Below, piece after piece: positions 42,640 through 51,117 of a stretch of 64,000 nucleotides of DNA. Source of the stretch: Nocardia wallacei (GTDB taxonomy: Bacteria; Actinomycetota; Actinomycetes; Mycobacteriales; Mycobacteriaceae); NCBI RefSeq assembly GCF_014466955.1, contig NZ_AP023396.1, positions 3,658,001 through 3,722,000 of the forward strand, in the 5' to 3' direction. Under the pieces are notes generated by a model. It ran no database searches. It had not been told where the DNA came from and saw nothing but the letters and a program-made list of their open reading frames with translations. The position numbers were made by a program, and so were the translations under genes. Within the stretch, counting starts at the first letter, position 1; each line of letters starts with the position of its first letter.

Positions 42640-43601
42640 TGGAACAGCGGGCGGTGGGGCGCAGCGGCTTACGGGTCTCCCGGATGGGACTGGCCACGCA
42701 CACCTGGGGCAAGGAAACCGACGCCGACGAGGCAGCGGTACAGCTGGTGGCGTTCGCCGAGGCCGGCGGCACCCTCGTCGACACCTCACCGGCCTACCAC
42801 GGCGGCGGCGCGCAGCGCATCCTCGGCGGGCTCGTCGGCGAACTCGTGCCGCGCGACGACCTGGTGTTGAGCGGCTGCGCCGGACTGGCCGCGGTCACCG
42901 GCGCCACCGACCCCGCCGGCGCACCGGCCACCGAGCTGCGCTGGACCGTCGACGCGTCGCGGCGCACCCTGATGCGCCAGCTCGACCGCACCCTCACCGA
43001 ACTCGGCACCGACTACCTCGACCTGTGGAGCGTCGCGGCCTGGGACCCGCGCACCCCGCTCGAGGAGATCGCCGCCACCGTCGAATACGCGGTGCGCTCC
43101 GGGCGGGTCCGCTACGCCGGAGTGCGCGGGCACAACGCCTGGCAACTGGCCACCCTCGCCGCGGCGGCGCCGATCACCGCCGCGCAACTGCCCTACTCGC
43201 TGCTCGCGCGCGGCCTCGAAGCCGACGTGGTGCCCGCCGCCACCCACCACGGCATCGGGCTGATCGCGTCCGCGCCGCTGGCCGGGGGCATCCTCACCGG
43301 CAAATATCGCGACGGCGTGCCCGCCGACTCGCGCGGCGCCGACGAGGACACCGCCGCGGAGATCCGCGACCGCCTCGACGACCACGCCGCCCGCGTCGTC
43401 GACGCCCTCGTCACCGCCGGCGACGGCCTGGGCACCTCGCCGCTGGCGGTGGCGCTGGCGTGGATCCGCGACCGGCCCGGCGTCGCCAGCATGGTCGTCG
43501 GTGCCCGCGACATCGCCCAGCTCACCGGCATCCTCGCCGCCGAGACCCTGGAACTGCCGCGCGCCATCGCCGCGGCCCTCGACGACGTCAGCAGCGGCTG
43601 A
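42639..43601 (+). CDS. Aldo/keto reductase-fold protein with two catalytic residues missing
   Basis: A 320-residue AKR-fold protein. Asp and Tyr of the tetrad are kept ([11 protein letters not shown]), but the Lys site reads LSGCAG (Lys to Cys) and the His site reads LWSVAAWDP (His to Ala). The cofactor end ([10 protein letters not shown]) is retained, so NAD(P)H may still bind. It might be a binding protein or use different chemistry. ATG at 42639 (GTG at 42636 possible). Confidence 0.86.
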
Positions 43602-43635
43602 GCGGCGGCCCGATCACACCCGCCGCCGGGCACCT

Positions 43636-43651
43636 CTTAGGCTTGCCTGCA
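43636..43651 (+). promoter_or_regulatory. Leaderless promoter with iron-box-like palindrome at hmuT
   Basis: TAGGCT (43638-43643) lies 7 nt before the hmuT ATG. It is part of TTAGGCTTGCCTGCA, with the palindrome AGGC-TT-GCCT, similar to half of the DtxR/IdeR iron box (TTAGG...CCTAA). Iron control fits the gene but the match is partial. Confidence 0.4.
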
Positions 43652-44730
43652 TGAGCAGCACCGACCGACCGGCCCGCACGCGCGCGACGGCCGGTGCGCG
43701 GCGCCCCGGGCGGGCCCGGCGCGCTCCGATCACCCGGATCGTGCCGGCCGTGCTCGCCCTGGTCCTGATCGCCGTGCTCGCCGCCTGCGGGAGCCCCACC
43801 GCCGGCGCCGGGCACGGCCCCGCCACCGCCACCCTCGACCAGCTGGACCCGGTGCCGGTCGGGCCCGCGCCCGCCCCCGTCCTGCCCGCGACCGTGCGGT
43901 CCTTCGACGGCAGCGAGGTCACCGTCACCGACGCCGCCCGCATCGTCGCCGTCGACCGCTACGGCACCCTCGCCCAGACCGTGTGGGCGCTGGGGCTGGG
44001 CGCGAACCTGGTCGGGCGCTCCACCTCCGCGTCGTTCCCCGCCGTGCGGCAGGTGCCCAACGTCGCCGGCGGCAGCGGCAGCATCAACGTGGAAGCCGTT
44101 GCCGCACAACGGCCCACGGTGTTCCTCACCGACACCGTCAGCGCCACCCCCGCCCTGCGTGACCAGCTCAAAGCGCTCGGCATCACCGTGGTCTACTTCG
44201 ACCCCGACCGCCGCCTCGACACTGTCGGGCCGCAGATCGAGGCGGTCGCCGCCGCCCTCGGCGTCCCCGACCGAGGCCGCGCGCTCGCCCAGCGCACCGC
44301 CGCCGAGATCGCCGCCGCCACCGCCGCGGTGCCCCGCCGGCAGCCACCGCTGAAAATGGCGTTCCTGTACCTGCGCAGCAGCGCGATCACCATGATGGCC
44401 GGACCCGGATCGGGCGCCGACACCCTGGTCACCGCCCTGGGCGGCACCGACGCCGGGAGCGCCGCGGGCCTGACCGAACCGTTCACCCCGATCACCAGCG
44501 AGGCCATGATCGCCGCCGCCCCGGACGTGTTCCTGGTCATGACCGACGGCCTGAAATCCGTCGGCGGCGTCGAGGGCCTCACCAAGATCCCCGGCGTCGC
44601 CCAGACCCCGGCCGGGCGCGACCGGCGCGTCGTCGACATGTCCGACGCCGCCCTGCTCAGCTTCGGCCCCAACACCGGCCACGTCCTCGCCGCCCTGCGC
44701 GACGCGATCTACTCCCCGCACACCGCATGA
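43651..44730 (+). CDS. hmuT: Heme ABC transporter substrate-binding lipoprotein
   Basis: A 359-residue lipoprotein (lipobox LAAC, Cys46, after a long basic leader). The HmuT/BtuF-like body has RIVAVDRYGTLAQTVWALG and NLVGRSTSASFPAV, the pattern of bacterial hemin-binding proteins. It would capture heme outside the membrane and pass it to HmuU. Its stop overlaps the HmuU start (ATGA, 44727-44730). Heme specificity is inferred from pattern and operon, not proven. Confidence 0.85.
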   Translation: MSSTDRPARTRATAGARRPGRARRAPITRIVPAVLALVLIAVLAACGSPTAGAGHGPATATLDQLDPVPVGPAPAPVLPATVRSFDGSEVTVTDAARIVAVDRYGTLAQTVWALGLGANLVGRSTSASFPAVRQVPNVAGGSGSINVEAVAAQRPTVFLTDTVSATPALRDQLKALGITVVYFDPDRRLDTVGPQIEAVAAALGVPDRGRALAQRTAAEIAAATAAVPRRQPPLKMAFLYLRSSAITMMAGPGSGADTLVTALGGTDAGSAAGLTEPFTPITSEAMIAAAPDVFLVMTDGLKSVGGVEGLTKIPGVAQTPAGRDRRVVDMSDAALLSFGPNTGHVLAALRDAIYSPHTA

Positions 44731-45941
44731 GCGACGCCGACCCACCGGCAGGCGAGGCAGCCGCACCGGACGCTCCCGCCGCCGGCCGCCCGGCAGCCAC
44801 GCACGGGTCGTCACCGGAACGCATCCGCGTGGAACACGCTGTGCCGCAGCGCAATCCGAGCCGCCACGCCGCGGACGCGCCGGACGGGCACGGGGCACCG
44901 ACGCGGCGCTGGTCGAAGATATCGATCGTGTTCACCGTGTCGGCGCTGCTGCTGATCCTGCTGGCCATGTACTCCGCCGCGGTCGGGCAGGTGCCGACCA
45001 CACCCCTGGAAGTCACCGGCAGCGTCCTGCACAAGATCGGCCTGCCCTGGGGCCCGCTCCCGGCCCACCCCGCCGGTGAGGTCACGCTGTGGCAGGTGCG
45101 GTTCCCGCGCGTGGTGCTGGCCGTGCTCGTCGGGGCCGCGCTGGCCACCGCGGGCGCGCTGCTGCAGGGCGTGTTCGCCAACCCGCTCGCCGAACCCGGC
45201 GTCATCGGGGTATCAGCGGGAGCCGCGGTGGGAGCCGGGATCGTCATCGTCGTCGGTGAAGCGTTCGTGGCGGCGTGGTCGGTGGCCGCGGGCGCGTTCG
45301 TCGCCGGACTGGGCACCACCCTGCTGGTGTATCTGCTGTCGCGGTCGGGCGGGCGCATCGAGACCGTCACGCTCGTACTCACCGGCGTCGCGGTCAACGC
45401 CTTCGCCGGCGGGCTCATGGCGTTCCTGCTGTTCACCGCCTCCCCGCAGGCGCGCGACCAGATCGTGTTCTGGCAACTGGGCAGCCTCAACGGCGCCACC
45501 TGGCAGTCGGTGGCCGTGGTCGCGCCGCTCACCGTGCTCGGCATCGCCGCCGCCGTCGCGATGGCCCCGCGGCTGGACCTGCTCGCACTCGGCGAAGCCG
45601 CCGCCCGCCACCTCGGCGTGGACGTGGAACGCTTGCGCCGCAACGTCATTCTCGCCGTCGCGATCCTCGCCACCGCCGGCGTCGCGTTCACCGGCATCAT
45701 CATGTTCGTCGGGCTGATCGTGCCGCACCTGGTGCGCATGCTGGTCGGCCCCGGCCACCGCGTCCTGATCCCGCTGTCGGCGCTGATCGGCGCACTCATC
45801 CTGCTCGCCGCCGACGTCGGCGCCCGCACCCTGGTCACCAACGCCGACCTCCCCCTGGGCATCCTCACCTCCCTCATCGGCGGCCCCTTCTTCTTCTGGC
45901 TGCTGCGCCGCACCCGCGCCCGCGCAGGAGGCTGGGCATGA
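44727..45941 (+). CDS. hmuU: Heme ABC transporter permease (FecCD family)
   Basis: A 404-residue permease. The first 60 residues are a hydrophilic extension; the FecCD core follows with LWQVRFPRVVLAVLVGAAL, GALLQGVFANPLAEPGVIGVSAGA (GALLQGVFANPLAEP is the family block) and IIMFVGLIVPHLVRMLVGPGHR. About ten membrane segments. Four-base overlaps with hmuT and with the His-repeat ORF downstream. Confidence 0.92.
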   Translation: MSDADPPAGEAAAPDAPAAGRPAATHGSSPERIRVEHAVPQRNPSRHAADAPDGHGAPTRRWSKISIVFTVSALLLILLAMYSAAVGQVPTTPLEVTGSVLHKIGLPWGPLPAHPAGEVTLWQVRFPRVVLAVLVGAALATAGALLQGVFANPLAEPGVIGVSAGAAVGAGIVIVVGEAFVAAWSVAAGAFVAGLGTTLLVYLLSRSGGRIETVTLVLTGVAVNAFAGGLMAFLLFTASPQARDQIVFWQLGSLNGATWQSVAVVAPLTVLGIAAAVAMAPRLDLLALGEAAARHLGVDVERLRRNVILAVAILATAGVAFTGIIMFVGLIVPHLVRMLVGPGHRVLIPLSALIGALILLAADVGARTLVTNADLPLGILTSLIGGPFFFWLLRRTRARAGGWA

Positions 45942-46375
45942 GCGCGACGCCGAGCGTCGGCGAGCGGCCCGGCATGGGCGCGACGCCGCACACGCCGGAC
46001 AGCGGGCAGAACCGGGCAGCCGAGCGTGGGCGGGTGGCTGTGCATGAGTCCGAGACCGCGCATGCGGTTGACCGCGGGCCGCGGGTAACCGGGCATGAGC
46101 GGGACGCCGCGCACACGCCGAACGGTGGGGACGGGTGGACGGCCGAGCATGGGCGGGCAACCGGGTATGAGTGCGAAACCACGCACACGGCGAACCGCGG
46201 GCAGCGGGCAACCGGGCACACGCGGAACGGCACGCACACGCCGGACTGTGGACAGGAGCGGGCGGCCGAGCATGGGCGGGTGGCCGGGTGTGCTGGAAGC
46301 CGCGCACGAACAGAACGCGGGCAGGAACGGCCGGCCGTGAACCGCAGCGCGGCCAGGACCGGGAGGGTGCGGTGA
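45938..46375 (+). CDS. His-repeat protein encoded between hmuU and hmuV (novel)
   Basis: A 145-residue ORF with ATG overlapping the hmuU stop (ATGA, 45938-45941), AGGAGG 6 nt upstream (45926-45931), and a TGA overlapping the hmuV GTG (GTGA, 46372-46375). The body is alternating repeats: 23-24-residue units (45971-46039, 46091-46162, 46214-46285) and 17-residue units (46040-46090, 46163-46213). Three units carry H-x5-H (HESETAH, HERDAAH, HTRNGTH); ten His and three Cys in all. No signal peptide or membrane segment, so cytoplasmic. It may bind heme or a metal passing through the transporter (inference). No known family recognised. Confidence 0.6.
   Translation: MSATPSVGERPGMGATPHTPDSGQNRAAERGRVAVHESETAHAVDRGPRVTGHERDAAHTPNGGDGWTAEHGRATGYECETTHTANRGQRATGHTRNGTHTPDCGQERAAEHGRVAGCAGSRARTERGQERPAVNRSAARTGRVR
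45971..46340 (+). repeat. In-frame tandem repeat inside the His-repeat ORF
   Basis: A period of about 120-123 bp (69-72 plus 51 bp) repeated nearly three times; the last 51-bp half is degenerate. Every unit is a multiple of 3. Recurring DNA words include GAGCATGGGCGGG and CGCACACGCC. Confidence 0.85.
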
Positions 46376-47220
46376 CCAGTGTGATGCACCGGGTGGCACA
46401 GGTTCTCGCGCGGCAACACGAAATGCCGGAACCGCCCGCGGCCGGGACGGTCACTCTGCGGGCCCGGCAGGTCAGCGTCGACCGCGGCGCCGGGGGCCGC
46501 GTGCTCGACCACGTGGACATCGACGTGGTGGCGGGCCAGATCCTGGCGCTGGTCGGCCCGAACGGCGCCGGGAAATCGACGCTGCTCGGGGCACTGTCGG
46601 GGGAACTCGACACCGCCACCGGCACAGTCGAACTCGACGGCCGGCCGATCCAGCGGTGGACGCCGGTCGACATGGCCCGCCGCCGCGCCGTCCTGCCCCA
46701 GACCCACACCGTCGGCTTCCCCTTCACCGCCCGCGAGGTCGTCGCCATGGGCCGCGCGCCATGGGCGCGCACCACCCGCCAGGACGACGACGAGACCGCC
46801 ATCGCCGCCGCGCTGGCCGCCACCGACACCGAACACCTCGCCGCCCGGCCCTTCCCCGCCCTGTCCGGCGGCGAACGCGCCCGCGTCGCCCTCGCCCGCG
46901 TCCTGGCCCAGGACACCCCCACCCTGCTGCTCGACGAACCCACCGCCGCACTCGATCTCGGCCACCAGGAACAGGTCCTGCGCCTGGCCCGCGCCCGCGC
47001 CGGACACGGCGCCGCCGTCGTGGTCGTCCTGCACGACCTCGGCATCGCCGCCGCCTACGCCGACCGCGTCGCCGTCCTGGAATCCGGCCACCTCGCCGCC
47101 TGCGGCCCCCCGCGCGACATCCTCACCACCACCCTGCTGTCCCGCGTCTACCAGCACCCGGTAGAAGTCTTCGACCACCCCCGCACCGGCGCCCAACTGG
47201 TCCTGCCCGCCCGCGGCTGA
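46372..47220 (+). CDS. hmuV: Heme ABC transporter ATPase
   Basis: A 282-residue ATPase: Walker A GPNGAGKST, Q-loop in VLPQTHTV, HmuV-like FPFTAREVVAMGRAPW, signature LSGGERARVALARVLAQ, Walker B LLLDEP, switch His in VVLHDLG. GTG at 46372 overlaps the stop of the His-repeat ORF and follows GGGAGGG. Confidence 0.94.
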   Translation: MTSVMHRVAQVLARQHEMPEPPAAGTVTLRARQVSVDRGAGGRVLDHVDIDVVAGQILALVGPNGAGKSTLLGALSGELDTATGTVELDGRPIQRWTPVDMARRRAVLPQTHTVGFPFTAREVVAMGRAPWARTTRQDDDETAIAAALAATDTEHLAARPFPALSGGERARVALARVLAQDTPTLLLDEPTAALDLGHQEQVLRLARARAGHGAAVVVVLHDLGIAAAYADRVAVLESGHLAACGPPRDILTTTLLSRVYQHPVEVFDHPRTGAQLVLPARG

Positions 47221-47382
47221 CCCCGGCGCGGGCCGACCGGTGCCCGGGACACCTCGAGAGGCGACGCCCGCGCAGACCGAGCGCGCGGCACGGCGCCGCT
47301 GCGGTCCCGCTCGCCTCGGCGACAAGCGCTGTGCGGGCCCCCACGGCAATCGGCCCGGGCGGTATCGCCCAGCCCCGGACAG

Positions 47383-47419
47383 CATTCCGGGCGGGGCACA
47401 GGCCGCCCCGCCCGGAATG
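47383..47419. terminator. Strong bidirectional terminator
   Basis: Arms CATTCCGGGCGGGGC and GCCCCGCCCGGAATG form a perfect 15-bp stem with a 7-nt loop, after hmuV and before the convergent 53-residue gene. Confidence 0.88.
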
Positions 47420-47500
47420 GACGTCATACCAGCTCGTCACGGTGTCGTGCACCTGGCCGCGCCGTCGTAACAGGTTGTCGCGCCGAGGTTCTCGGCTCGC

Positions 47501-47662
47501 CTACCGGTCGGGCCGGTCGTCGTCCTCGTCCGGGCGGGCATGATCCGGGACGCCGGGGTTCGGATCCCGGGCGAGATCGATCAGCGGATGCACGCCGGCG
47601 CCCTCCGGCGCCGCGTGTTTGCCGTGGCTCGTCGTCTGCTGCGTATCCCCGTCGTTGGTCAC
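47501..47662 (-). CDS. Small acidic protein, 53 residues
   Basis: A GTG start with TAACCT (47675-47670) exactly 7 nt upstream, the leaderless pattern seen across the window. It encodes a hydrophilic protein: MTNDGDTQQTTSHGK start, HPLIDLARDPNPGVPDHARP middle, and an acidic end rich in Asp. It has its own convergent terminator. No family recognised. Confidence 0.6.
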   Translation of the reverse strand: MTNDGDTQQTTSHGKHAAPEGAGVHPLIDLARDPNPGVPDHARPDEDDDRPDR

Positions 47663-47713
47663 GCCCTTCAGGTTAACGGAGCACCGTGCTCCGGTTGCAA
47701 CCCGCCACGCGTG

Positions 47714-49807
47714 TCACCGCCACACCAGCTTGAGCACCGCCGGGGTCAGCAGCATCCGAATCACGGTGGCGTCCAGCACCAATGCCGCGATCATCCCGTA
47801 GGCGATGTATTTCATCAGCACCAGATCCGAGAACCCGAACGCGCCGGTGACCACGATCAGGATCGCCGCGGCCGAGGTGATCACCCCGCCGGTGTGGGCG
47901 ACACCGTACCGGATCGCCTCCGCCGGCTCCGCCCCGTTCGCCCGCGCCTCGGCCATCCGCGACTGCAGGAACACCTCGTAATCGGTCGACAACCCGAACA
48001 GCACCGTCACGATCAGCACCAGCACCGCGAACATCAACGGCCCCGGCGTGAAATGAAACAGCCCCGCCCCGTGCCCCTCCACGAAGATCCAGGTCAAAAT
48101 GCCCAGCGTGGCACCGAGACTCAGCGCGCTCATCACCACCGCCTTCACCGCCAGCACCAGCGACCGGAACGCCGCATACATCAGCGCCACGGCGGCGAGC
48201 ACCAGAATCGCCGCCAGCAGCGGCAGACCGTCGATCAGACCGCGGATGGCGTCACGTTCCAGCGCCGGCACGCCCGCGACCATCACCCGCACCCCCGGCG
48301 GTTCCGCGATCGCGCGCAGCGCCGCGATCGCCGCGTCGGCGTCGCGCTCGTCGACCAGCCCGGTCGCCAGCACGTTCACCCCGTTGGTGGTCGGCGCGGA
48401 CGCCTCGAACGGCCCGGTCAGCCCCGGCACGAAATTGGCCTGGAACCGGATGTCGGACAACTGCTGCGCGTCCGCGCCCACCACCACCAATTTCAATGGC
48501 TCGGTACGGAATTCGGGGAACAGGGCGTCGAACTTCTCCTGCGCCACCCGCGCCGGGGCGTCCTGGGCCAGATAGCGTTCACTCAAACCGCCGAAAGCGA
48601 TGTGGCGGAACGGGATCAGCAGCGCGAGCAGCGCCAGCACCACCGGCACGATCACCCGCGCCGGGCGACGCATCGCGAAACTCGCCAGCCGGGCGAAGAA
48701 CCCGTCGTCGAGCTGCTCGGCGGTGCGGATCCCGGCGAACCGGCCCCACCCCCACAGGTCGATGCGCCGGCCCACGATACCCAGCGCCGCCGGCAGCGCC
48801 GTCACCGACAGCAGCGCCGCCAGCAGCACCGAGCTGATGCCGCCGTAGGGCACCGACCGCAGCACCCCGTTCGGGTAGATGAACAACGCGCCCAGACTCA
48901 CCGCGATGATCGCCGCCGAGAACAGCACCGTGCGGCCCGCGGTGGCGACCGTGCGGGCCGTGGCCTCCTCCACGCTGCGCCCCGCCGCCAGCTCCTCCCG
49001 GAACCGGGTCACCGCGAACAGCCCGTAGTCGATGGCCAGGCCCAGACTGACCAGGGTCACCACCGCGCTGGCGAACACGTTCACATCGATGTAGCCGGTC
49101 AGGGTCCGCATCATGCCCTGACTGCCCAGGATCGTCATACCGCCGATCAGCACCGGCAGCAGCGCCCCCACCACACCACCGAACACGAAATACAGCAGCA
49201 CCGCCACCAGCGGCAGCGCGATCAGCTCCGCGCGGTGGATATCGCGCTGCATACCGATATTGATGCCCTCCACCACCGGTTGCAGGCCCGCCAGCTGCAC
49301 CGTCGTCCCGCCCGGCCCGCCGCCCGCGACCCCGGCGGCCAGTTCGTCTTTCACGGCGAGATAGTTGTTCACCGACTCGGTGTCCTCCCCGCGCAGCCCG
49401 ATACTGGCGAAGGCGTGCGTGCGGGAGGCGTCGGCGAACTGGCCCATCATCGAGCCGTCGAAGTAGCTGTCGATCTTCTGGATGCGGTCGGGATATTTCG
49501 CGCGCAACTGTGCCAGCGCGGTCGTGACCGCGGCCCGCACCGGCGGGTCGTCGACGGTGCGGCCCGGCGGGGCGGTGTAGAGGACGATGATGTCGGCGTC
49601 GCGGTCGCGGCCGAAGGTCTCGTCGGCGATCTTGGAAGCCACCACCGATTCGCTGTGCTCGTCGAACCAGCCGCCCTGGGTCAGCCGCGGGCCCAGGTCG
49701 CGGCCGAACAACCCCGACAGCGCGACCACCGCGAGCGCGACGGCCAGCACCACGAACCGGTGGCGGTGCACGAACCGGCCCCACCGCATCGACAACTGCC
49801 GCACCAC
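47714..49807 (-). CDS. MMPL-family RND transporter
   Basis: A 697-residue RND transporter with two halves, each a membrane helix, an external loop and five helices: LGLAIDYGLFAVTRFREEL (with the proton-path Asp-Tyr) in the first, LFGLSTDYEVFLQSRMAE in the second. MMPL proteins export lipids or siderophores in mycolic-acid bacteria. GTG at 49807 is used; the gene starts 8 bp after the lipoprotein stop, so the two are an operon. Substrate unknown. Confidence 0.92.
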   Translation of the reverse strand: MVRQLSMRWGRFVHRHRFVVLAVALAVVALSGLFGRDLGPRLTQGGWFDEHSESVVASKIADETFGRDRDADIIVLYTAPPGRTVDDPPVRAAVTTALAQLRAKYPDRIQKIDSYFDGSMMGQFADASRTHAFASIGLRGEDTESVNNYLAVKDELAAGVAGGGPGGTTVQLAGLQPVVEGINIGMQRDIHRAELIALPLVAVLLYFVFGGVVGALLPVLIGGMTILGSQGMMRTLTGYIDVNVFASAVVTLVSLGLAIDYGLFAVTRFREELAAGRSVEEATARTVATAGRTVLFSAAIIAVSLGALFIYPNGVLRSVPYGGISSVLLAALLSVTALPAALGIVGRRIDLWGWGRFAGIRTAEQLDDGFFARLASFAMRRPARVIVPVVLALLALLIPFRHIAFGGLSERYLAQDAPARVAQEKFDALFPEFRTEPLKLVVVGADAQQLSDIRFQANFVPGLTGPFEASAPTTNGVNVLATGLVDERDADAAIAALRAIAEPPGVRVMVAGVPALERDAIRGLIDGLPLLAAILVLAAVALMYAAFRSLVLAVKAVVMSALSLGATLGILTWIFVEGHGAGLFHFTPGPLMFAVLVLIVTVLFGLSTDYEVFLQSRMAEARANGAEPAEAIRYGVAHTGGVITSAAAILIVVTGAFGFSDLVLMKYIAYGMIAALVLDATVIRMLLTPAVLKLVWR

Positions 49808-49815
49808 AGCCGAAC

Positions 49816-50349
49816 TCAGCCGCAGGCCGCGGTCTTGTAGTCCGCCGAGCGCAGGATCCCGCACAGGTCTGCGCGGGAGATCTTCCAGGTGCCGTCCCTG
49901 TCGACGAAATGCACGATCGTGGTGCGCACGTTGGACCCGGTGCCGTCCTTGTCCAGGCGCATGGTGGCGGTGAGGGTGCCGTCGCGGTTGTCGAAGACCG
50001 GATCGGTGACGCCGTAGACCGCGTGGGGGTTGTCCTGCATCGCGCGGTACATGTCGGGGATGGCGTCCTTGAACGCCTCGCCGTCCTCGATCAGGGCGGT
50101 GCGCTCGCTGTCGGGCAGCGACGGGTCCAGCGCGCGCTTGATCTGCGCGTCGAGTTCGGCGGCGGTCGGGATCGGCGGGCGCAGCGCCCGGCTGGTCGCG
50201 GCGGCCTGCGACGAGGACGTCATGGCGGCATACGCCGAGGAGCGGGCCGCGGCCACCGAATCCTCGTCGGTGTCGCTGCCGCACGCCCCCGCCAGCACGG
50301 TCAGCGTCAGCAGCGGCAGCAGCGCCGCTGCCGATCGTCGCAATGCCAT
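49816..50349 (-). CDS. MTB12-like secreted lipoprotein
   Basis: A 177-residue lipoprotein (LAGAC, Cys23). The mature part (AELDAQIKRALDPSLPD..., then VFDNRDGTLTATMRL and WKISRADLCGIL) resembles the low-molecular-weight antigen MTB12 C-terminal domain, an NTF2-like fold. ATG at 50349 follows GAGG. Precedes and probably works with the MMPL transporter. Confidence 0.78.
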   Translation of the reverse strand: MALRRSAAALLPLLTLTVLAGACGSDTDEDSVAAARSSAYAAMTSSSQAAATSRALRPPIPTAAELDAQIKRALDPSLPDSERTALIEDGEAFKDAIPDMYRAMQDNPHAVYGVTDPVFDNRDGTLTATMRLDKDGTGSNVRTTIVHFVDRDGTWKISRADLCGILRSADYKTAACG

Positions 50350-50778
50350 CTGCGTCCTCACCGTCGTCGAAAGTTACCGGTAGTTCTCCTACAGTCTGTC
50401 ATGCGCCGCGCCCCACCCCACGCATCTCCGGCCCTCCGACGAAATGCCTTGGCGGGCAACGGGTTACGAAAGTATCGGCGGCAAGACGGTGCGAGGGCCG
50501 TGGGCAAGCTGCCGAAGCACCGTGGGCAAGAAGCTGCCGAAGCTGCGGGGGCAAGGAGCTGCCGAGCACCGTGGGCGAGGAGCTGCCGAAGCTGCGGGGG
50601 CACAGAGCTGCGGGGGCAAAGAACGGCGCCGGGTGCTGGTGGGTGCGAAACATTGGGGCGAGGAGTTGCCGGAGTATTCGGGGACGAAGGCTATGGCCGG
50701 TGAGGACCGGGGTGTTCGGGCGAGGAGTGGTCGCGGTGGCGCCGGGTGCGGAATTGCCCCGGTGTCGGCGGTGAGGGG
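50350..50778. repeat. Gene-free region with imperfect tandem repeats
   Basis: 429 bp. From about 50497 to 50640 the words GTGGGC(A/G)AG, AGCTGCCGAAGC and TGCGGGGGCA recur in a 22-49 bp rhythm; a weaker copy is at 50655-50680. All frames are open but no gene-like start or family was found. Confidence 0.65.
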
Positions 50779-51117
50779 TTACCGGCCGTCGAGGACGGCG
50801 CCGAGGCGGCCGAGCAGCCCGCGGGCGGTCGTGCTGGCGCGGTCGGGGACCGGGGTGGCGGCGGCGATCAGGTCGCGTACCGCGGCGACGACACTGCGCT
50901 CGTCGCCGAGGTCGATATCGGTGACCCCCGCCGCGGCGACGGCCGTCACGTCCTCCGGGCCGGGCACCGCGGTGGACCGGGCGGCCTCGGCGCGGTAGAT
51001 CTCGAGGGCCAGCGTGGCACCGACCGTGCGGAAGGCGAACCAGCGCCCGTCACCGGTGACACCGAAACCGTGCGCGAACGGACCGACGGTAATGTCCTCG
51101 ACGATGAATCCAGACAT
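50779..51117 (-). CDS. Conserved mycobacterial-type protein (Rv2137c-like)
   Basis: A 112-residue protein starting MSGFIVEDITVGPFAHGFGV, close to the start of Rv2137c-type proteins. A two-layer alpha/beta start is followed by an Ala-rich helical end. No signal peptide. ATG at 51117 is used; TTG at 51132 has the better ribosome site (AGGGAG). It is divergent from the LppL-like gene, the same order as in M. tuberculosis. Function unknown. Confidence 0.75.
   Translation of the reverse strand: MSGFIVEDITVGPFAHGFGVTGDGRWFAFRTVGATLALEIYRAEAARSTAVPGPEDVTAVAAAGVTDIDLGDERSVVAAVRDLIAAATPVPDRASTTARGLLGRLGAVLDGR

Follow-up and report, generated by a model that had tools for sequence, protein, structure and literature searches.

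Three described systems come close to the arrangement reported here. In termination-reinitiation at overlapping genes, coupling was found to require the overlap itself, and an intergenic distance of about 20 nt almost abolished it (Huber et al. 2023, PMC10666635). A review (PMC12548453) describes the MIRUs of mycobacteria as elements that insert at start codons, where their internal open reading frame (ORF) becomes coupled with a spacing of −4 nt, and reports that MIRUs are thought to let DNA sit at start codons with minimal impact on expression. The same review describes short ORFs, the sole role of which is to deliver the ribosome to the next gene. Here, we analysed an ORF of 145 codons that lies between the permease and ATPase genes of a heme-type transporter operon of Nocardia wallacei. 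On sequence grounds, we consider it likely that this ORF is a translational-coupling relay without a sequence-specific peptide function, which has grown by frame-preserving repeats; we refer to it, and to its counterparts in related genomes, as relay.

The operon is located in the window, i.e. the whole analysed stretch of 64,000 nucleotides, with the following features:

43501..44730, + strand: gene of an HmuT-like substrate-binding protein (Pfam Peripla_BP_2, E 1e-27), the stop of which overlaps the hmuU start by ATGA; the coordinates are those of the ORF from its most upstream start, which is a putative start
44727..45941, + strand: hmuU, heme-type FecCD permease (Pfam FecCD, E 1.7e-91; best PDB relatives are the hemin permeases 5b57 and 4g1u)
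45926..45931, + strand: AGGAGG ribosome-binding site of the relay ORF, within the end of hmuU, read in the sequence
45938..46375, + strand: relay ORF, 145 codons plus TGA, with an ATGA overlap with the hmuU stop and a GTGA overlap with the hmuV start
45987..46289, + strand: tandem array within the relay from repeat analysis, frame-preserving, with a period of 123 nt (72+51)
46361..46366, + strand: GGGAGG ribosome-binding site of hmuV, within the end of the relay, read in the sequence
46372..47220, + strand: hmuV, ATP-binding protein of a heme ABC transporter (Pfam ABC_tran, E 3.6e-30; NCBIfam NF010068, 324 bits against a cut-off of 261)

Judged by its domains, the operon is that of a heme-type ABC transporter, with genes for a binding protein, a FecCD permease and a heme-type ATPase, in this order. 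We use the hmu gene names because Pfam, NCBIfam (for the ATPase) and the nearest solved relatives of the permease, which are hemin permeases, all support them; the HmuTUV-type operon of the original prediction is thus confirmed. Within hmuU, the first 60 codons (44727-44906) show a non-coding-like codon usage (log-odds −0.15), and in relatives the match to HmuU often does not set in before about residue 50-60. Further downstream in the window, a tandem repeat with a 25/49-bp unit is present at 50507-50611, just upstream of a minus-strand ORF (49816-50361). A search of positions 43000-50800 against Rfam gave no match up to E 1.

At the start of the relay, AGGAGG (45926-45931) is followed by six bases (45932-45937) and by ATG at 45938-45940, which overlaps the hmuU stop TGA (45939-45941). 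At its end, the stop TGA (46373-46375) overlaps the hmuV start GTG (46372-46374). The placement of the ORF between permease and ATPase genes, the AGGAGG six nucleotides ahead of the ATG and both overlaps had been noted in the original prediction and were found again in the sequence. The same applies to the repeats: the array shows 0% indels and 75% matches and reads as alternating units of 24 and 17 residues. We regard the ORF, doubly coupled to hmuU and hmuV, as probably translated.

How does this locus compare with the described systems? As in termination-reinitiation at ATGA, the same four-base overlap occurs at both ends of the relay with no untranslated gap, and relatives without a relay show a direct ATGA or GTGA pair; the difference is the third ORF of unconserved sequence, which stands between the two genes with both overlaps kept. 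As for the ribosome-delivering short ORFs, the proposed role of the relay would likewise be only the delivery of ribosomes to the next gene, but the relay is located inside an operon, continues the coupling of the upstream gene and can reach 378 codons. The likeness to MIRUs is that the relay ORF of the window is coupled by overlap (GTGA) to the downstream hmuV. Unlike MIRUs, however, its DNA is not dispersed in its own genome (G000), in which the best other match among the best 40 of 143 candidates reached E 0.0103 over 38 nt. In addition, it consists of 435 nt of locally grown repeats with the 123-nt period (72+51), compared with a unit of about 77 bp, which we take to be the size of the mycobacterial MIRU. 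It is also unlike the 77-bp unit of Nocardia described below, a comparison that concerns the Nocardia element and not the mycobacterial MIRU sequence: an nhmmer profile built from 37 copies of this element gave no match to the window relay at E ≤ 0.01 and none in the shuffled control. The window relay thus appears to work like a MIRU, yet we do not class it as one, because it is not dispersed and does not match the 77-bp element.

To place the locus in its genus, we surveyed the hmuU-hmuV junction in related genomes. At E ≤ 1e-60, 146 of 150 genomes of the genus contained hmuU, which was also present in 80 named loci, and the junction was read in 226 loci (30 + 116 from the genus genomes and the 80 named ones). 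Merging of identical junctions left 154 distinct ones, 147 from Nocardia and 7 from Rhodococcus/Rhodococcoides. Direct junctions, in which the hmuV start lies at an NTGA overlapping the hmuU stop, accounted for 87 of these (80 of the 147 Nocardia junctions and the 7 from Rhodococcus/Rhodococcoides), and 27 of the 87 carry an N-terminal extension of HmuV of at least 8 codons. L034, L198, L200, L203 and L225 carry in-frame extensions 57-106 codons long, the codon log-odds of which range from −0.30 to 0.11; such long HmuV extensions are the in-frame counterpart of the relay at the same junction. Relays occupy 62 of the 154 junctions: an ORF begins within the NTGA that contains the hmuU stop, and its own stop overlaps the hmuV start in a second four-base NTGA, with lengths of 11-378 codons and 43 distinct lengths. 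In 30 of the 62, the relay end coincides exactly with the hmuV start estimated from homology; the remaining 32 deviate by −18 to +27 nt, 20 of them by 12 or 24 nt, which we take to reflect a variable hmuV N-terminus. Five junctions are variants. L063 starts at TGATG and reaches hmuV, as does L020 by a chain of two ORFs (13 + 23 codons). L153 shows an apparent two-ORF chain (194 + 84 codons), with an ambiguous base in hmuV and the result 'overshoots' in the automated chain test. In L130, the ORF stops 3 nt ahead of hmuV. In L137 (genome G131), the junction is direct, but the hmuV frame breaks further downstream, which is due to either a sequencing error or a damaged gene.

The relays differ even between close relatives. 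In the nearest relative, Nocardia wallacei strain 760185014, the permease is 95% identical over residues 59-404, while the relay is an unrelated 39-aa ORF without histidine, and within the clade of the window relay lengths of 29, 34, 39, 61, 91, 145 and 153 codons occur. A tree of hmuU ends plus hmuV, calculated by a quick method for 150 rows (leaving out L137, L153, L191 and L199, and counting L020, L063 and L130 as relay), implies at least 18 switches between the relay and the direct state.

Despite this variation in length, the distance between the hmuU and hmuV starts is 2 mod 3 in all 62 relays. Across them, the relay frame contains no stop in 4074 codons, which holds by definition up to the relay end, whereas the other two frames contain 103 and 49 stops (4012 codons each). 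Under shuffling, 32 of the 62 would be expected to be open, and the product of the individual probabilities of openness is about 10^-23 when kinship is ignored. Tandem arrays were detected in 10 relays (those of at least 75 nt were searched), and their periods are multiples of three in 9, the exception being L142. The window relay taken alone is unremarkable in its openness (P about 0.18 for shuffles of the same DNA); the case for a non-random frame is based on the comparison across junctions and not on this single ORF. Ribosome-binding sites were present as well. In the relatives, the anti-Shine-Dalgarno duplex energy has a median of −10.0 for the starts of relays and of −10.3 for those of hmuV at direct junctions; hmuV starts that follow a relay reach −7 kcal/mol or lower in 85% of the 62 cases, and random positions in relays longer than 90 nt do so in 9%.

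The encoded peptide behaves differently from its neighbours. Summed over seven species pairs, pN/pS is 0.80 for the relay compared to 0.01 for the end of hmuU and 0.09 for hmuV, these being seven of 15 computed pairs, hand-picked from the most alike ones with no species shared. The relay value does not differ significantly from equality (Fisher P 0.25), and relay substitutions are spread evenly over the three codon positions (37/46/46). Individual dN/dS values of relays range from 0.25 to 2.78 over the 15 pairs and from 0.25 to 1.55 within the chosen seven; four of the seven lie at 0.25-0.64, and mild constraint on some relays is conceivable. Among the three 24-residue and three 17-residue repeat copies of the window relay, pN/pS is 1.01. 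Codon usage of relays is non-coding-like, with a median log-odds of −0.26 in the 56 relays of at least 60 nt compared to 0.37 in hmuV. Frame, openness and both overlaps are hence kept while the peptide changes near-neutrally.

Why should a bacterium keep a frame open for a peptide that it does not conserve? We suggest that ribosomes finishing hmuU at ATGA would restart at the overlapping ATG of the relay, translate it, finish at GTGA and restart on hmuV. Selection would then act on the frame, on the absence of stops and on the two four-base overlaps, since hmuV would lose its coupling to hmuU if an untranslated stretch lay between them; such a gap could also expose the mRNA to Rho. The relay peptide would be a by-product, which drifts and lengthens by tandem duplications in multiples of three, and its histidine pairs would be a passive outcome of the repeat unit. 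We infer from this scheme that relays are translated, that hmuV is reached by restart and that HmuV levels would fall if the frame were lost. Given that a distance of about 20 nt almost abolishes coupling, the junction should accept inserted DNA in two forms only, as an in-frame extension of hmuV or as an open ORF with its end on the hmuV start. The first is present in the long HmuV extensions and the second in the relays, and the third frame was found only in L137, in which hmuV itself is broken; by length, L130 and the unclean L153 belong to the in-frame class. hmuV, which has its own ribosome-binding site, might also be initiated without coupling, and the coupling account leaves the tolerance of relays of up to 378 codons unexplained. 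At other gene pairs of the own genome (864 kb), relays were counted in 16 of 119 cases in the overlap frame with a start codon and in 29 of 359 without one, while the control frames gave 45 of 478 and 44 of 478; by this frame control, no clear excess of relays was seen in the 864 kb. The offset control of the scan is biased, since every TGA that follows A, G or T includes a start codon.

The 77-bp unit mentioned above is a dispersed start-codon element of Nocardia. It was noticed in L278-L297 and L302-L321 as well as in the own genome. Among 43 best-matching rows, with one place counted twice as L282 and L302, the ATG-to-ATG distance is exactly 77 nt in 34, encoding 26 residues (MSERSERI...PSASEAQS), and start codons are present at both ends in 35. 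The element lies in gene orientation, and the stop of its ORF overlaps the start codon of the following ORF by ATGA. Matches at E ≤ 1e-4 occur in at least 111 of 148 genomes of the genus, the own genome included (best 6 candidates per genome), and matches at E ≤ 1e-6 in at least 5 of 200 genomes of the order (best 4 candidates per genome), three of which belong to the same genus and two to one other genus. The 864 kb of the own genome contain two copies, L260:1840-1925 (+) and L245:13817-13901 (−), both of which end with an ATGA that includes the start codon of an open frame, a putative gene. The element looks like the Nocardia counterpart of the mycobacterial MIRUs, and no paper on MIRU-like elements in Nocardia was found in the literature collection that we searched, in which a broader search gave mainly typing studies of tuberculosis.

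The element also occurs at the preceding junction of the operon. There, 86 distinct hmuT-hmuU junctions divide into 69 direct and 17 non-direct ones. Twelve of the latter carry a small ORF, the end of which overlaps the hmuU frame by ATGA or GTGA, although in two of them, L063 and L103, similarity to hmuU sets in upstream of the hmuT stop. The overlap of L107 holds CTG instead, and L052, L059, L074 and L113 are outside the simple form. The insert is the 77-bp element in L048, L052 and L059, with two tandem copies in L052; L045, L056 and L116 are among the other non-direct cases.

At the hmuU-hmuV junction, an origin of the relays from this element is not supported for the window: nhmmer detected it in only one of 67 non-direct junctions (L137 included) and in none of the 87 direct ones. 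The single case is L161, the relay of which contains five copies of the element. Dispersal in the respective own genome was examined for seven relays, with at most the best 40 candidates for each. Within these limits, L161 has at least 25 other matches, L149 a further pair of short matches at a single other site and L153 one 34-nt match elsewhere; the relays of L191, L123 and L014/L082 are single at E ≤ 0.001. As a general origin, we also rejected tandem duplication of the ribosome-binding site together with the ATGA junction, because the two junctions are no more alike within than between genomes. An exact 14-nt copy of the junction at the right place was found in L160 only, and the other junction matches with z > 3 (L194 and L154) fall beyond the hmuV start.

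Other readings of the window ORF have to be weighed against the coupling relay. The hmu junctions of Nocardia might be a nursery for new proteins, in which the demand for coupling keeps inserted DNA of up to 378 codons open, translated and thereby recruitable; some relays, namely those with lower dN/dS or longer repeat relays such as that of the window, may then already have a lineage-specific role. We consider this doubtful. It is unlikely that the relay tunes stoichiometry, such that its length, codon usage or inefficient restarts hold HmuV below HmuU under selection. The non-optimal codons (median log-odds −0.26) and the extra restart would indeed be expected to lower HmuV, but relay lengths from 29 to 153 codons within the window's clade speak against a set level, and the sequences are near neutral.

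That the ORF encodes a functional histidine-rich or repeat protein which retains heme or metal on the cytoplasmic side of the transporter, as proposed in the original prediction, is very improbable. The real ribosome-binding site, the double coupling and the location between two heme-transporter genes would suit it, as would the three H-x5-H pairs, which we could confirm and which exceed residue shuffles (mean 0.60, P(≥3) = 0.016, a value that ignores that the repeats copy one another). However, H-x5-H is present in only 5 of the 62 relays, histidine accounts for 3.8% of the residues in the relay frame and for 3.8% and 2.4% when this DNA is read in its other two frames, and the potential ligand residues are not conserved. 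Neither Pfam nor NCBIfam contains a family that matches the protein, and among 5.8 billion proteins a word-based search at E ≤ 0.01 returned only its own cluster (four member sequences from three contigs). Both pN/pS values, 0.80 in relay pairs and 1.01 among repeat copies, further argue against such a function. Comparison of the same place in relatives cuts both ways for the earlier proposal: directly joined permease and ATPase genes are common, the ORF being absent from 80 of 147 Nocardia junctions, which counts against heme or metal binding and leaves it unsupported, whereas 62 of 154 junctions share the coupling architecture. The weakest reading, an untranslated spacer expanded by repeats with an ORF open by chance and incidental overlaps, accords with the openness of the window relay under shuffling (P about 0.18) and with its likewise open other frames and opposite strand, but is scarcely credible given that relays of 43 lengths, at 62 of 154 junctions, all reach the hmuV start in one and the same frame, that the other frames carry 103 and 49 stops and that array periods are multiples of three in 9 of 10 relays with arrays; the view of the original prediction that merely non-coding repeat DNA is a poor account is borne out by the conservation of frame and overlaps.

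With the window ORF read as a coupling relay, the hmuU-hmuV junction of Nocardia constitutes a natural experiment, in which about 60 different sequences stand at one place, and length and letters vary while frame, openness and overlaps are kept. The relays would thus allow a direct test of how much translational coupling between transporter subunits contributes to fitness. The result is also a warning against annotating such ORFs as new heme proteins. Beyond the operon itself, our results point towards a route by which unconserved sequence may be kept translated.
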